From the NCBI GenBank assembly GCA_018671895.1, contig JABHGV010000004.1:1-58697 (forward strand): a DNA stretch of 58,697 nucleotides, read 5' to 3'. Under the pieces are notes generated by a model. That model was not told where the DNA came from, searched no databases, and saw only the letters and a list, made by a program, of their open reading frames with translations. Source of the stretch: Rhodospirillaceae bacterium (lineage in GTDB: Bacteria > Pseudomonadota > Alphaproteobacteria > Rhodospirillales > JABHCV01). Every line of letters starts with the position of its first letter. Position 1 is the stretch's first letter. Below are positions 2,486 through 53,969 of the stretch, piece after piece. The position numbers were made by a program, and so were the translations under genes.

Positions 2486-4519
2486 TTAATAATCCAGGAA
2501 GCTTCTGAGCTTGCGCGAGCGGCTGGGGTGTTTCAGCTTGCGCAACGCCTTGGCTTCGATCTGACGTATTCGTTCGCGGGTAACAGAGAACTGCTGGCCG
2601 ACTTCTTCCAGCGTATGATCGGTGTTCATGCCGATGCCGAAGCGCATGCGCAGCACACGTTCTTCACGCGCCGTCAAGCTGGCCAGAACCCGCGTCGTGG
2701 TTTCGCGCAGGTTCGCCTGAATGGCGGCGTCCAGCGGCTGTACGGCATTCTTGTCTTCGATGAAATCGCCCAGATGGCTGTCTTCCTCGTCGCCGATGGG
2801 GGTCTCGAGCGAAATCGGTTCTTTCGCGATCTTCAGAACCTTGCGCACTTTTTCCAGCGGCATCGACAGCTTTTCCGACAGCTCTTCGGGCGTCGGTTCG
2901 CGGCCAATTTCATGCAACATCTGGCGCGATGTACGGACCAGTTTGTTGATGGTCTCGATCATGTGCACCGGAATACGGATGGTGCGGGCCTGATCGGCGA
3001 TGGAACGCGTAATCGCCTGCCTGATCCACCATGTGGCATAGGTCGAGAATTTATAGCCGCGGCGATATTCAAACTTGTCGACGGCCTTCATCAGGCCAAT
3101 GTTGCCTTCCTGAATCAGATCCAGGAACTGCAAGCCGCGATTGGTGTACTTCTTGGCGATCGAGATCACCAGGCGCAGGTTGGCCTCGATCATTTCCTTC
3201 TTCGCCTTGGCCGCCTCGCGCTCGCCCTTTTGCACGGTCGACACGATCCGGCGGAATTCATTGACCGGCAATCCTGCCTCTTCGGCAATGGCGCCGATGG
3301 ATTTGCGCATGTCCTTAACATCATCGCCATAGCGATTGACGAAGCGTTCCCAGCTTTTCGGCGACAGCTTTGCAACCTTCTTCAGCCAGCGCGGGTCCAA
3401 CTCGTGGCCGTGATACTGCTCCAGGAAATCAGCGCGCTTGATCTTGGAATTGGTCGCCATCCGCAAAATCTTGCCTTCGAAGCCGATCAACTGACGGTTC
3501 AGGCCATACAGATGCTCAACCAGCTGTTCGATCCGCGCGTTGTTCAGGTGAACCTTGTCCATCAGCACGACCAGTTCGTGGCGCAGCTTGCCATAACGCT
3601 TTTCCTGCGCCGGCTTGATCTGTTCACCCTTGGAAAAGGCTTCCATGCGCTGCAATTGCAGACGATGCAGTTTCTTGTATGTCTTGGCGATGGACTCGAA
3701 GTTTTCGATCACCTCTGGCATCAACTTGGCTTCCAGAGCCGCCAGCGACAGGTTTACCTCTTCGTCGTCGTCTTCGTCGTCCTTCTTGGCGCCCTCTTGT
3801 GTTTTTTCGCCTTCTTTGGTGTCGCCTTCTTTCTTGTCCCCGGCGGTGGCCTGATCTTTCTTTTCGCCTTCGCCTTCCTTTGCGCCTTCGCCTTCGGCCG
3901 GTTTTGCAGCACCATCGGTGGTCGATGTGCCATTGGCGTTCACGTTATTGGGGGCCTGACCGGGGCCGCCGCCGTGGGTGGCGTCCAGATCGATAATATC
4001 GCGCAGCAGCATCTTTTCTTCGATTAGCGCGTCATGCCAGCCGACGATGGCGCGAATGGTCAGCGGATTTTCGCAAATGCCGCCGATCATCATTTCGCGA
4101 CCGGCCTCGATCCGCTTGGCGATGGCAATTTCACCTTCACGCGACAGCAGTTCGACCGAACCCATTTCGCGCAGGTACATACGCACCGGATCGTCCGTCC
4201 GGCCCAGGTCCGTCTCGCTGACATTACCGGCGACTTTTTCTTCTTTTTCCGGGGCGGCCGTGGCTTCTTCGCTGTCTTCGTTGTCGACGACGTTAATGCC
4301 CATTTCCGACAACTGGGTCATGGTGTCTTCAATTTGTTCGGATGACACCTGTTCAGGCGGCAGCGCCGTGTTCAATTCGTCATAGGTGACGAACCCGCGC
4401 TCCTTGCCTTTGGCCAGCATCTTTTTGACTGCCGCACCAAGGGTGTCGAGCAACGGGCTGTCCGTGGTTTGTTCCTGCTGGCTGCCCTTTTTAGCGGCAG
4501 CGGTCGATTTGGTCGCCAT
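2486..4519 (-). CDS. rpoD: RNA polymerase primary sigma factor RpoD (sigma-70)
   Basis: 677 residues. Region 1.1 is at the N terminus, then region 1.2 ([21 protein letters not shown]). Region 2 starts near residue 445 ([20 protein letters not shown]) and contains the -10 recognition helix with [10 protein letters not shown]. Region 4 fills the last ~65 residues with [19 protein letters not shown] as the -35 helix. Between regions 1.2 and 2 the non-conserved segment carries a very acidic, Glu/Lys/Gly-rich low-complexity run at about residues 200-260. The start ATG has AAGG eight bases upstream. Genes yqeY, dnaG and rpoD follow each other on this strand, the classic macromolecular synthesis order. 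This is the housekeeping sigma factor. Confidence 0.98.
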
Positions 4520-4548
4520 CTAAAACCTTTATATTCAACGTCCGGGGG

Positions 4549-4640
4549 CCTTAAATATAAGGTGGCCTCTCCGTCCGACCGGGCGCTCACATATAATTAA
4601 AGTGAGCCTCCCGAAAATTCCCATCGACCGCAATGCGGTC
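4549..4640. other. Three small palindromes in the dnaG-rpoD gap
   Basis: The 135-base gap holds three hairpins: CCTTA/TAAGG (4549-4562), GCTCAC/GTGAGC (4585-4607, loop ATATAATTAAA) and GACCGCA/TGCGGTC (4626-4640). None is followed by a clear T run on the minus strand. They may be an internal processing or promoter region that lets rpoD be expressed apart from dnaG; this is inference. Confidence 0.45.
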
Positions 4641-4654
4641 ATTCATTCACTTTC

Positions 4655-6553
4655 TCAAGAAACATCCCTTAATTCCGGGTCCGCCCTTCCCTCCAATGCT
4701 TCTCGTTCCTGCTCCTTCAACGTCCGCAGGTTATCGTAAACATCGTCTCTCATATCATTGGAAAGGCGTTTCTGTTCCTCTTGAATCTCGTCTTGCAAGT
4801 CCGTGTTCTTGTACAGTGCGAAGGTTTCTTCCCAGCCTTCTTCGGCAATTTCAATGTCGGCGGTGGGCTTGGCAAAAAATGCATGCTCGAAAACCCGAGG
4901 ACCCGAAATCTGATCCAGGATATCCGTATAATCGCTTTTCTTGAGGTGGCGTTTCAATCCATCTGTGTCAAGGCCCACTTCCCCGGCCAATGTCTTTAAA
5001 ACCTCTTGCCGCAGATTGTCAAGGCCGAGAGCAGAAAAGGAAAGGGTTCCAAGGCGTTCCCCGACTTTGTCATAGAGCCCCGGATGACCGACCAAGGTCG
5101 CCAAAAGGATATGTTCACGCAGCGCATGGGCATCGATTTTAACCGCCGCCCCGGCCCCTGCGCCGACGCTCGATACCGGGGCTAAGGCGCGTCCACCGCC
5201 GCGTTTGCCCGACCCGCCACCAGCCGCCCTGCTCCCGGCCCACAGGCGATCCTTAAAATCTCTCGAGAAATGCGCCCGAACGGTGCTGTCCGAAATCGAC
5301 CGGGCATGGTCTTCCAGCGCCTTTTGCACACTGGCGCGCTGTTCCGGCGTTTTTGGCACTCTGCCGCCGGTTTCCATGCGCCACAGCACCTCTGACAAGG
5401 GCTCTGCCCGGGCGATAACATCGGTCATCGCCTGACGGCCCGAAGACGCAATCAGGGAATCCGGGTCTTCGCCATCGGGCAGGGACGCAAAACGCAGCGC
5501 ATATCCGGGGTTCAGCAGTGGCAAGGCGCGTATCGCCGCCTTGGTCGCGGCGCGGGCGCCCGCCGCGTCGCCATCGAAGCACAGCACCGGTTCACGAACG
5601 ACCCGCCACAGCTCGCCAATCTGATCCTCGGTCAGGGCCGTGCCCAGCGGTGCGACGGCATTTTCGAACCCGGCATGGCTCAAGGCGATCACATCCATAT
5701 AACCTTCGGTGACGATCACGGTTTCCTGTTTGCGCGCCGCCCCCAGCGCATGGTGCATGCCGTACAGCACGGAACCCTTATGAAACAGCGGCGTTTCCGG
5801 GGAATTCAGGTATTTCGCCATTTTCGAGTCTTTATCCAGAATCCGCCCGCCAAAGGCGATCACCCGGCCCCGTTTATCGGTAATCGGGAATATGACGCGC
5901 CCCCGGAACCGGTCATATGATTGTCGGGCCGATTCACGCCCCTCCGGGACGACCGGACCTTGGCGATCATTTCCAGCGTCTTGGTATGCTTCAGGCTGGA
6001 TCAGCAGCCCGCCCTCGATCATCAATTCCTCGGAAATACCCTCGCGCTTCAATGCCGCCTTGATGACGCCCCGACCGTCGGGCGCAAACCCCAGTCGAAA
6101 CTTGGCGATGGTGGCGTCGCTTAAACCCCGGTCGCGCAAGTACTCAAGGCCGACGCGGCCTTCGGGCATGCGCAGGAATTTCTCGTAAGCCGCCGCCGCG
6201 GCCTCCATCACGTCGTACAGGGTCTGGCGCTGTTTGGCGCGCTGGCGCTCTTCGGGGCTGTCGACGGGCACTTCCATACCGGCGTCGCCAGCCAGCCGTT
6301 CGACGGATTCCGGGAAAGACAGGCCTTCGCTGTTCATCAGGAAATCGATGGCACTGCCATGCGCCCCACAGCCGAAGCAGTGATAAAAGCCCTTGTCGTC
6401 GTTGACGGTAAAGGACGGGGTCTTTTCCTTGTGGAACGGGCACAGGCCGGAATGTTCGTGGCCCTTGCGGATCAGCTTCACACGTTTTGAAACCACATCA
6501 GAAACATTGATGCGGGTTCTGAGTTCATCCAGAAACTGCGGTGTAAAGGCCAT
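4655..6553 (-). CDS. dnaG: DNA primase DnaG
   Basis: 632 residues from the chosen ATG at 6553, where the protein reads MAFTPQFLDEL as in other primases; an upstream in-frame start at 6631 would add 26 unrelated residues. The N-terminal CHC2 zinc finger is present (Cys38, His41, Cys59, Cys62). The TOPRIM core follows with VIVTEGYMDVIAL and VLCFDGDAAG. The C-terminal third is the helicase-interaction part. It makes RNA primers for replication together with DnaB. It lies between yqeY and rpoD on the same strand. Confidence 0.97.
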   Translation of the reverse strand: MAFTPQFLDELRTRINVSDVVSKRVKLIRKGHEHSGLCPFHKEKTPSFTVNDDKGFYHCFGCGAHGSAIDFLMNSEGLSFPESVERLAGDAGMEVPVDSPEERQRAKQRQTLYDVMEAAAAAYEKFLRMPEGRVGLEYLRDRGLSDATIAKFRLGFAPDGRGVIKAALKREGISEELMIEGGLLIQPEAYQDAGNDRQGPVVPEGRESARQSYDRFRGRVIFPITDKRGRVIAFGGRILDKDSKMAKYLNSPETPLFHKGSVLYGMHHALGAARKQETVIVTEGYMDVIALSHAGFENAVAPLGTALTEDQIGELWRVVREPVLCFDGDAAGARAATKAAIRALPLLNPGYALRFASLPDGEDPDSLIASSGRQAMTDVIARAEPLSEVLWRMETGGRVPKTPEQRASVQKALEDHARSISDSTVRAHFSRDFKDRLWAGSRAAGGGSGKRGGGRALAPVSSVGAGAGAAVKIDAHALREHILLATLVGHPGLYDKVGERLGTLSFSALGLDNLRQEVLKTLAGEVGLDTDGLKRHLKKSDYTDILDQISGPRVFEHAFFAKPTADIEIAEEGWEETFALYKNTDLQDEIQEEQKRLSNDMRDDVYDNLRTLKEQEREALEGRADPELRDVS

Positions 6554-43677: not shown

Positions 43678-46066
<2,389 letters not shown>

Positions 46067-51239: not shown

Positions 51240-51677
51240 TTACAGCATCCCCGCGTTCATGTAGGCGATGACCCATGTCGCGACCGTCAGCCCCAACGAG
51301 ACAAGGACGACAAGCACACCGCTTGCCCGCAACACCGACATATTAAAGCCGAGGCCAACATCCCAGAACAGATGTCGAATGCCGTTGGCAAGATGATAAA
51401 ACAGCGAAAAGGTCAGCCCGAACAAAAGCACCTGTCCGAACCAGGAGCCGAAAAACCACTGCGCGCGCGCAAACGCATCCGGGCCATAGGCCGCCGCCGA
51501 CAACCAATAGGTCAGCAGGACCGCGCCACCACACAGGGCGACGCCAAACATTCGATGCAGGATCGACAGAATGGATGTGATTTGCGGGTTATAGACCTGC
51601 AAATGGGGTGACAGCGGACGGGAACGGACCGCCTTGCCATCGTTTGTCTGAGCCGTGTTCGTCGAACCTGTGTTCAT
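51240..51677 (-). CDS. sdhC: Succinate dehydrogenase cytochrome b556 subunit
   Basis: 145 residues with three membrane helices. RPLSPHLQVYNPQITSILSI and HRMFGVALCGG are the Sdh-cyt signature; SLFYHLANGIRHLFWDVG contains the haem-binding histidine. First gene of sdhCDAB. Confidence 0.96.
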   Translation of the reverse strand: MNTGSTNTAQTNDGKAVRSRPLSPHLQVYNPQITSILSILHRMFGVALCGGAVLLTYWLSAAAYGPDAFARAQWFFGSWFGQVLLFGLTFSLFYHLANGIRHLFWDVGLGFNMSVLRASGVLVVLVSLGLTVATWVIAYMNAGML

Positions 51678-51717
51678 GTTATTCTAGGCCGAACCTTCCC
51701 TTGCACTCCCCTTATCC

Positions 51718-51746
51718 CGTTTAAAGCCTCCTATGGGGCGAGTCAA
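51718..51746 (-). promoter_or_regulatory. Likely sdhCDAB promoter
   Basis: Minus-strand TTGACT (51746-51741) and TAAACG (51723-51718) are 17 bases apart, about 40 bases upstream of the sdhC ATG. The carA candidate promoter has nearly the same elements. Confidence 0.55.
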
Positions 51747-51753
51747 CGCGGCT

Positions 51754-51766
51754 TGTGCACTGCACA
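51754..51766. promoter_or_regulatory. Palindrome upstream of the sdh promoter
   Basis: TGTGCA-C-TGCACA is a perfect 13-base palindrome placed just upstream of the proposed -35 element, inside the wider run CTTGTGCACTGCACACAA. The position suits an activator site. The regulator is unknown. Confidence 0.45.
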
Positions 51767-51879
51767 CAAAAGCGGGTGTTCAATAGAGCCAGAGAATGCT
51801 CAACGACGGGCACAGAAAAAACGTGCTCGTCCCCTTCATCAAAAATTTCGCCTCAAGGCACACCTATTCAGGGCTCTCC

Positions 51880-52020
51880 CCTAACTATTTGATTTCAAAC
51901 AATTATTAAGTGTTTCTGTGAATATTATTGTGGATAAGGTGTGCGCCAAATGTGAACAGGTCACTTATTTATGCACAGAAAACTGCGTTTTCCCGGGAGT
52001 TAGCCGTTGTAAAAACAGGC
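51880..52020. other. AT-rich stretch with two DnaA-box-like sites
   Basis: TGTGGATAA (51929-51937) is the exact complement of the DnaA box TTATCCACA, and TTATGCACA (51969-51977) differs at one base. They sit in a low-GC stretch between the sdh promoter and the structured region. Two boxes are too few for a chromosomal origin by themselves; they could be a DnaA regulatory site or chance. Confidence 0.4.
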
Positions 52021-52099
52021 CAATATTTAGAGCATCGTAGGCGCACGTGAAAGTGTCGATGCGACGATTTTAACGCCTCGTTTTCTGATGATCCTTTTA

Positions 52100-52738
52100 G
52101 GAGATTCGGCAGGATAAAGCGAAGAAATTGTCGCCCCCGCAATGAGCAGGTGTTCGCACCGTGGCTGGTTACGGGGACGGTGGACTGGTCGGCAACGGAC
52201 AGGACATCGACAAGGAACGAGCCTCATTAACGTGAGGCGGACGCTTCGTTGAATTGGCCGATCCTCCCTGGTGAAGATCGGCATACAAGGCGGCGAAGAC
52301 AAGAACCAGGGATCCGGCCCAGCCGGTGAAAAGGTTCTTGAAGAGGAAAACCGAGATCGGGGTGCCATGCATTCCGGTTACAGGTTTCCGGGGGTTCGCC
52401 CCCAGGGGAGGCATGACGGAAAGTTTCGGCTTTCCGGTCAGGTATTTCCATACTTGTCCGCACCACGAGGCTGGTGAATTGCGTCGACGGTCTGCTTGAA
52501 GCGAAGAACCTTTGCCGGTGCAAGCCGGGGAGTGGGGCTTCGTTGAAACAGACCTCGCAGTCGGATGGTTCGGGCGATTCTCTGCCCAGGGTACGCCCGG
52601 GTATTACGGCAGCGGTGGCGAAAGCCGCTTTACATGTGTGCGGAGCCCTGGCCGGCTCCAATTAGAAACGTCAGGTGTGTCGCTACGGCGACACGAAACA
52701 CAGGTTTCCCAGGATCTGTGTACCTGACGTTTCTTTTT
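52100..52738 (+). ncRNA. Candidate large structured RNA (unassigned class)
   Basis: About 640 bases with no convincing gene but a chain of perfect hairpins: GCCTCA/TGAGGC (52221-52238), GCCGATC/GATCGGC (52257-52282), AAGAACC/GGTTCTT (52301-52339) enclosing CCGGC/GCCGG, GGGGG-TTCG-CCCCC (52390-52403), CGGAAAG/CTTTCCG (52417-52436), CACCA/TGGTG (52461-52476), GGTCTG/CAGACC (52489-52554) enclosing CCGG/CCGG, and GGAGCC/GGCTCC (52642-52659). It ends in a three-way junction: a 13-bp outer stem (52664-52676 with 52722-52734) holding GTGTCGC-TACG-GCGACAC and ACACAG/CTGTGT, then TTTT. TTCG and TACG tetraloops are typical of RNA. RNase P RNA, tmRNA and SRP RNA signatures were not found. The 5' end is not known; the strand is chosen from the final T run. 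Confidence 0.6.
52664..52738 (+). terminator. Three-way-junction 3' element with T run
   Basis: Outer stem AGAAACGTCAGGT/ACCTGACGTTTCT (13 bp, perfect) contains two hairpins, one capped by a C(TACG)G tetraloop. The outer stem runs straight into TTTT (52735-52738). It is larger than a usual intrinsic terminator but has the same logic. Confidence 0.65.
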
Positions 52739-52740
52739 GT

Positions 52741-52880
52741 CTTGATTCTGCCCCTCAAGCGCCGGGCGGGGCTATTCGCCCCTTGGCTTTCTGGTTCACT
52801 GGAAGTCAAAACAAGTTTGGCGACAGGAGCCTGAATCTTCAAATCCTGATACCCGCCGCCAATTTAAACTTGGCTTCCAG
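52741..52880. other. Further hairpins beyond the T run, at the mch 3' side
   Basis: CTTGA/TCAAG (52741-52759), GGGGC-TATTC-GCCCC (52768-52782), and a long nested stem CTGGAAG/CTTCCAG (52799-52880) enclosing AAGTTT/AAACTT (52813-52818 with 52866-52871) and CAGGA/TCCTG. No gene is visible. They may be part of the same RNA locus or the 3' untranslated region of the convergent mch mRNA. Confidence 0.5.
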
Positions 52881-52910
52881 AGACCTTGCCCCGCAGGGCA
52901 TCATATATGG

Positions 52911-53969
52911 CTAATTCCTTCTTGGAATTAGCACCGTATAATCGAAATCGAGGACAACGGACTCGTGATACTTGCCGTCTTCGCCCTTGTCCGGGAAATC
53001 CGCACAGGCGTGATCCTTCGTTGCCACAGTGCGCAAGCGCAAGGCGCCTAAGTCAGATCGGCCGGGAACCTCGATGCGCCCCAGAACTTCGGTCCATGCA
53101 TAGATGGTATCGCCGCCAAACGTCGGCGCCACATGTGATCCGGCATTGATGGCACAGACACGAAAGGCATTGGCAAGACCATTAAATGACAAGGCGCGCG
53201 CCGTACTGATTATGTGCCCGCCGTAAACGATACGCCTGCCGAAGCGGCCATCTTTTTCCACGTGCTGGTTAAAATGAACCCGGGCCGGATTCTGATACAA
53301 GCGCGAGGCCATGGTGTGTTCGGCCTCTTCAATGGTCATGCCATCTACATGATCGATTTTTTCCCCGACCTGATAATCGTCCCAGGTCAACGAGCTGCCC
53401 GCCAGATCAAAATCGTATCCGGCAAGGCTAATGCCTTCTGGTACCACCAGTTCGCGCTCGTCAACAAAGGGGGCAAGGTCAGGAACCACCGTTTCGGGTG
53501 CAGGTGAAGAGGCGTCGCCCTTTCGGACCATCACCCAGCGAACAAAATCCAGCACTGGTTCATCGCGCTGGTTTACCCCCGTCGAGTGAACGTAGACGAC
53601 GCCGGTCTTACTGTTGGAGTTTTCCTTGGCCCCGATCACCTGGGAAACCGTGCGCAGGGTATCGCCCGGATAAACGGCGCCTGCGAAACGCCCGGACGCA
53701 TAACCCAGATTGGCGACCGCATTCAGCGAGATATCAGGAACGGTTTTGCCGAACACTATGTGAAACACCAACAGGTCATCGACAGGCGCGGCTTCAAAGC
53801 CCAACGATATGGCGAACATATCGGACGACTGAACAGCGAAACGCGATCCATAAAGTGCCGTATAGAGGGACACATCGCCTTCAGTCACCGTTCGTGGCGC
53901 GGCATGGACGATTTCCTGTCCCGGCTTAAAATCCTCGAAAAAATTTCCGGGTTCGGTTTTAACGCTCAT
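52911..53969 (-). CDS. mch: Mesaconyl-CoA hydratase-like (two MaoC hot-dog domains)
   Basis: 352 residues. Two MaoC-like hot-dog halves are visible: NFFEDFKPGQEIVHAAPRTV opens the first, and DDYQVGEKIDHVDGMTIEEA the second, with RVHFNQHVEKDGRFGRRIVY after it. The whole matches mesaconyl-C1-CoA hydratase of the ethylmalonyl-CoA pathway, which interconverts mesaconyl-CoA and beta-methylmalyl-CoA. Its ATG overlaps the stop of the malyl-CoA enzyme gene by four bases. A hairpin (CTAATTCC/GGAATTAG) covers its stop codon. Other enoyl-CoA hydratase roles cannot be excluded. Confidence 0.85.
   Translation of the reverse strand: MSVKTEPGNFFEDFKPGQEIVHAAPRTVTEGDVSLYTALYGSRFAVQSSDMFAISLGFEAAPVDDLLVFHIVFGKTVPDISLNAVANLGYASGRFAGAVYPGDTLRTVSQVIGAKENSNSKTGVVYVHSTGVNQRDEPVLDFVRWVMVRKGDASSPAPETVVPDLAPFVDERELVVPEGISLAGYDFDLAGSSLTWDDYQVGEKIDHVDGMTIEEAEHTMASRLYQNPARVHFNQHVEKDGRFGRRIVYGGHIISTARALSFNGLANAFRVCAINAGSHVAPTFGGDTIYAWTEVLGRIEVPGRSDLGALRLRTVATKDHACADFPDKGEDGKYHESVVLDFDYTVLIPRRN

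Follow-up and report, generated by a model that had tools for sequence, protein, structure and literature searches.

Large structured noncoding RNAs of bacteria such as GOLLD, ROOL and OLE are several hundred nucleotides long, have multi-branched folds with strong covariation and are poorly understood in function (PMC12286853). Few bacterial RNAs of this size show deep structural conservation, and every known class is treated as a separate problem. CcnA, an alphaproteobacterial noncoding RNA from Caulobacter, has a gene linked to DnaA boxes and to the machinery of the cell cycle; the RNA is 182 nt long, is encoded within the origin next to hemE and is presumably activated by CtrA (PMC8959179). 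At the DNA level, datA and DARS of E. coli are fixed clusters of DnaA boxes outside oriC (PMC4585315). The locus analysed here resembles each of these systems in part. Its RNA is comparable to the first group in size and in its multi-branched, covarying fold, but it is chromosomal and syntenic with sdhC, whereas GOLLD and ROOL are encoded by phages or prophages. CcnA would be its nearest functional analogy, although the RNA described here is ~697 nt long, lies away from hemE and follows an array of DnaA-box-like sites, so that size, place and promoter set the two apart. What distinguishes this array from datA and DARS is its fixed spacing to a promoter from which a conserved structured RNA would be transcribed.

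The RNA gene was placed at 52042-52738 on the forward strand of the window (the whole stretch of DNA analysed, 58,697 nucleotides), with a predicted start that is accurate to within a few nucleotides. Its minimum free energy relative to shuffled sequences (z = -10.1) made it the strongest fold of the window, and when the 58.7-kb window was divided into 93 segments (mean -0.011 kcal/nt relative to shuffles, standard deviation 0.020) the locus was a clear outlier at -0.103 kcal/nt. The original prediction had set the start at 52100, which is too late: the shorter interval 52100-52738 reached z-scores of -8.1 on the forward and -5.1 on the reverse strand, and inclusion of a helix formed by 52042-52054 and 52627-52640 lowered the forward value from -8.1 to -10.1. 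The strong hairpins are strand-symmetric and also fold on the reverse strand. The gene lies between the divergent sdhC (51240-51677, reverse strand; Pfam Sdh_cyt, 8.6e-31, and synteny), which adjoins it in most carriers of the order, and a convergent mesaconyl-CoA hydratase-like gene (52911-53969, reverse strand; Pfam MC_hydratase, 5.9e-17, and MaoC, 1.2e-17). Since the downstream gene is convergent, the RNA is not a leader. The claim that the window contains no other long stretch free of genes was checked for 51678-52910 around the locus.

Several details of the predicted architecture could be recovered. The TTCG and TACG tetraloops are present at 52390-52403 and 52677-52694, and the 13-bp terminal stem (52664-52676 paired with 52722-52734) closes a three-way junction and is followed by a T tract, as had been stated. 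The richness in hairpins was borne out, with eight non-overlapping perfect hairpins of at least 5 bp counted where at least nine perfect ones had been stated; dinucleotide shuffles gave 3.4 on average, and eight was reached in 4 of 200. The doubled motif GCGAAG...CTTCGTTGAA does occur, near 52119/52244 and 52501/52538; it was ruled out as a hallmark because relatives do not conserve it.

Comparison of the locus with Rfam 15 gave no hit at gathering scores, the sole match in the whole window being one tRNA; at E<=10 the locus returned two eukaryotic chance matches and none to a bacterial family. No Rfam family scored above its gathering threshold in twelve relatives either, and the GOLLD, ROOL and OLE models matched neither the window (gathering scores and E<=10) nor the twelve relatives (E<=1). 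Likeness to these three RNAs, to which the original prediction had pointed, thus holds for size only. The models of RNase P RNA, tmRNA and 6S RNA matched elsewhere in the same genome (contigs C17, C72 and C22, respectively) and not at this locus. One partial resemblance concerns the terminator junction of a single relative (L185, 1600-1662), which scored 34.4 bits against the DUF3800-VI RNA model (RF02915; cut-off 35) and shares with it a small three-way junction with the similar bases GGAG, CGUU and ACC. This suggests a shared three-way-junction module; RF02915, however, has 52 positions and is classed as a cis-regulatory element, while the junction described here would end an RNA of ~700 nt, and no DUF3800 gene was seen beside the RNA. 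That the RNA belongs in diverged form to a known large family or to a phage element (GOLLD, ROOL, OLE, RNase P RNA or tmRNA) is accordingly most improbable, as size, the multi-branched fold and the weak RF02915 similarity of one relative stand against the lack of any above-threshold Rfam match in the window or the twelve relatives, the location of RNase P RNA, tmRNA and 6S RNA elsewhere in the genome and the result for the phages, plasmids and viral contigs searched, none of which matched the RNA. An origin from phage or plasmid was rejected on this last result. In a small targeted search of open-access papers no such RNA was found described. The family would be new: large structured RNAs are known as a type, and this RNA belongs to none of the known families that were tested.

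Homologs were identified with blastn in 29 of 100 related genomes, and sdhC was nearly always upstream of and divergent to the RNA where the flank was present. A pattern scan of the genomes of 84,980 species yielded 52 stretches, mostly from metagenome-assembled genomes (MAGs) of Rhodospirillales or Alphaproteobacteria and in part on the same contigs. Nearly all relatives with titles were likewise Rhodospirillales or Alphaproteobacteria MAGs, and most carriers are MAGs. Pattern matches in Nonomuraea, Streptomyces, Bifidobacterium, Planctomycetota, Litorilinea and Lysobacterales were discarded as chance because the terminator was absent in a strict motif scan, which also missed some matches labelled as Rhodospirillales. 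A covariance model of the 3' core (R1, 168 positions) matched 96 of 297 genomes of the order, representing 51 of 111 genera and usually with one strong match each, as well as 28 of 384 other genomes of the class (E 1e-18 to 4e-4); the best matches outside the order kept H3 (see below) and the GAGGCGUC stem and differed in the terminator loop. The RNA is chromosomal, usually single-copy and distributed over many genera and several alphaproteobacterial orders while being absent from Rfam 15. A detectable copy was missing from about two thirds of the genomes of the order, and the RNA is therefore not needed universally. One genome carried a second, unusual locus (G030, contig C57; L128, ~4362-4900) composed of a DnaA array, about ten tandem repeats of 33-35 nt (GGAACGGTCCAACGGGTCGCGAAGCCTTCGGGT) and a three-way-junction terminator of the same type; no sdhC match was found in the stretch around it, and the normal copy of this genome is on contig C12.

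Compensatory base changes between homologous loci, which had been proposed as a check, were far above shuffled controls and spread over dozens of genera. Among 45 distinct 3' cores compensatory changes occurred in 24 of 40 pairs, and the 131 compensatory cells compare with 37.1 +/- 5.4 in shuffles; these controls, like those for the closing helix below, leave the relatedness among loci in. Paired cells of the core amounted to 95.3%, compared to 88.1% in shuffles and 37-49% for slid structures. The predicted 5' end of the RNA, GCACGCGAAAGCG, pairs with CGCUUUC..GUGC directly before H3, ~580 nt downstream in the window, and the resulting closing helix P1 (5' strand 52042-52054, 3' strand 52627-52640) showed 16 compensatory cells over 35 loci, compared to 6.3 +/- 2.0 in shuffles, of which 0 of 1000 reached 16. 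P1 also emerged unprompted from the single-sequence fold. A GNRA hairpin considered for the same 5' end was rejected, as its stem was 89% paired with covariation not above shuffles, and its bases covary instead with the segment before H3.

P1 encloses a multi-branched interior (52055-52569) that varies in sequence and greatly in length between families, with a predicted RNA length of 355-983 nt. Within clades it is structured, with compensatory changes in 63 of 242 and 58 of 188 pairs in full-length alignment folds and fold energies far below those of column-shuffled controls. Hairpin H1 (52570-52600) follows, in which the loop segment UCUCUGCCCAGGGU is near-invariant. Hairpin H3 (52642-52659; consensus GGAGCCUGGCCGGCUCC) behaves in the opposite way to its neighbours, as its stem is nearly invariant and kept in other orders while the neighbours vary, which points to recognition of the sequence of H3. 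The three-way-junction terminator (52664-52738) is composed of the 13-bp stem, hairpin A (52677-52694), hairpin B (52698-52721; loop UCCCAGG) and the T tract, with covariation in all three stems; all these elements are on the forward strand. Two candidate loop contacts were discarded. Kissing of CCCAGG loops with the CCUGG of H3 was not matched by changes in other loops where the H3 loop varied (CUAG, CCGG, CAGG), and a 6-bp pairing of the CCAGGG of H1 with a CCCUGG loop farther upstream was dropped because many loci had no such upstream motif.

Protein-coding constraint in homologs had been named as the sign that would speak against a structured RNA. The translated comparison identified no conserved reading frame across the RNA loci; matches were spread over every frame of either strand, chiefly among closely related loci or within the RNA core, as nucleotide conservation would produce. 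The compensatory changes together with the lack of a conserved frame mean that this objection does not apply. The GC-rich sequence does leave long open frames, somewhat longer than in shuffles, yet it is very improbable that the region codes for a protein or that the RNA has a dual function through a small open frame, in view of these matches in every frame and of the long-range covariation within a promoter-to-terminator unit. The original reading as a large structured noncoding RNA whose class is unassigned is supported by fold, compensatory changes, the missing conserved frame and the missing Rfam match. Comparison between loci thus gives the boundaries of the gene, its fold, homology and covariation and the array upstream of it, and supports the view that 52042-52738 is a stand-alone large structured noncoding RNA of a class absent from Rfam, which is probably transcribed as the predicted promoter-to-terminator unit.

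The putative promoter (52007-52035, forward strand) consists of a -35 element TTGTAA (52007-52012), a 17-nt spacer and a -10 element GAGCAT (52030-52035); the consensus of relatives was TTGAAN-N17-CATCAT (42 aligned loci). Upstream of it lies the DnaA-box-like array (51917-51977, forward strand), with TGTG sites at 51917, 51929, 51940 and 51951, of which the one at 51929 is TGTGGATAA, a perfect box on the other strand, and with the inverted box TTATGCACA at 51969-51977. Its spacing is conserved in nearly all loci. In nearly all of 28 aligned loci TGTGGATAA (a perfect or one-mismatch DnaA box on the other strand) was found upstream of the RNA and an inverted TTATnCACA 40 bp beyond it (39 bp in L008). 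TGTG recurs at -12, +11 and +22 of TGTGGATAA, giving 9-mers two bases apart; DnaA oligomers at origins are known to have this spacing. Of 100 genomes searched with a strict 49-bp pattern of the array, 28 contained it, each exactly once, and the reversed control gave no match. All 28 of these genomes were RNA-positive, for which the chance is 1e-12 given that 47 of the 100 were RNA-positive. The distance from the last box to the -35 element was 29-30 nt in 34 of 42 loci, and this fixed distance suggests that the promoter is regulated. One natural variant, in which the array is shortened to 29 bp between boxes while the RNA core is strong (L009, G094:C1:2063550), would be suited to testing the role of the array.

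The array beside an AT-rich stretch, one per genome, raised the question whether the locus is itself a replication origin with hairpin-rich DNA. In the complete genome G094 the GC skew flips at 1.4-1.6 Mb, with dnaA (1.42 Mb) and hemE (1.54 Mb) both near the sign change, whereas the RNA element is at 2.06 Mb and thus 0.5 Mb from hemE. The sign of the skew did not change across the element in G000 (the genome of the window), G003 and G058 and was too noisy to judge in G014; in G000 hemE is on another contig (C47). The hemE loci moreover have their own DnaA boxes. Both the GC skew and the separate position of hemE hence argue against an origin at the RNA locus, a reading we rejected as highly improbable. 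Several DnaA-box-like sites are present beside hemE in two loci (L155 and L158), which would fit an origin of the Caulobacter type at hemE.

The main function could also lie at the DNA level, in a locus that titrates or recycles DnaA as datA or DARS do and to which the RNA would be secondary, for example if transcription past the array regulated DnaA loading. The boxes 2 bp apart, the single array per genome and its position away from the hemE locus would fit, and read-through transcription is described as affecting binding at E. coli datA (PMC10950094). This would leave the compensatory changes throughout the ~700-nt RNA, P1 and the invariant H3 unexplained, and the promoter at a fixed distance suggests that it is the promoter that is regulated; we therefore regard this proposal as unlikely.

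A dedicated regulator of the adjoining sdhCDAB operon, acting in cis or in trans, is slightly less likely still. Most carriers of the order, and several from other orders, have divergent sdhC next to the RNA, and repression of sdh by sRNAs is known from other bacteria, for example by NrrF (PMC5586341). In other orders, however, RNA-model loci were found with the array (L195, L196, L197, L201, L205, L207 and L209) or with tandem boxes 11 bp apart (L202, L204, L210 and L211), and several of the other-order RNA loci had no sdhC in the flank examined, so that array and RNA travel together, with sdhC as a looser partner. The RNA also runs away from sdhC, and to our knowledge sRNAs that target sdh are far smaller.

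The reading we favour, and consider somewhat more probable than not, is that the RNA stands alone, represents a new class, has its transcription linked to DnaA and acts in trans. RNA polymerase would start at ~52042 from the sigma70-type promoter, and DnaA would assemble on the phased boxes at 51917-51977, at their fixed upstream distance, and set promoter activity, so that the level of the RNA would track the state of replication or growth. Binding of DnaA is proposed from the 9-mer sites, and a different protein could use the array; that DnaA binds there and controls transcription of the RNA is nonetheless fairly probable. In the folded transcript P1 would close a single multi-branched domain, and the invariant H3 and the three-way-junction terminator would come after it. 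The simplest way for the RNA to act in trans would be to scaffold an RNA-protein particle that recognises H3 and the terminator junction, the alternative being base pairing of exposed loops with other RNAs; action in trans by either route has in our estimate about an even chance. If the model is true, a large RNA would carry information on the state of replication to other processes, and the constant association of the RNA with a DnaA-oligomer-like array away from the origin offers a testable regulatory input that most such RNAs lack. We are evenly divided on the broader proposition that this would be a new and anciently conserved class of large alphaproteobacterial RNA under direct DnaA control by a dedicated oligomerisation array outside the origin, relaying replication state.

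Elsewhere in the window, the malate dehydrogenase frame at 43678-45168 (reverse strand) extends ~165 residues beyond its Pfam domains, which end at residue 330 of 496. The extension is a Lys/Ala/Pro-rich repeat resembling histone H1-like tails, and it may represent a fusion, a frame error or a real tail.
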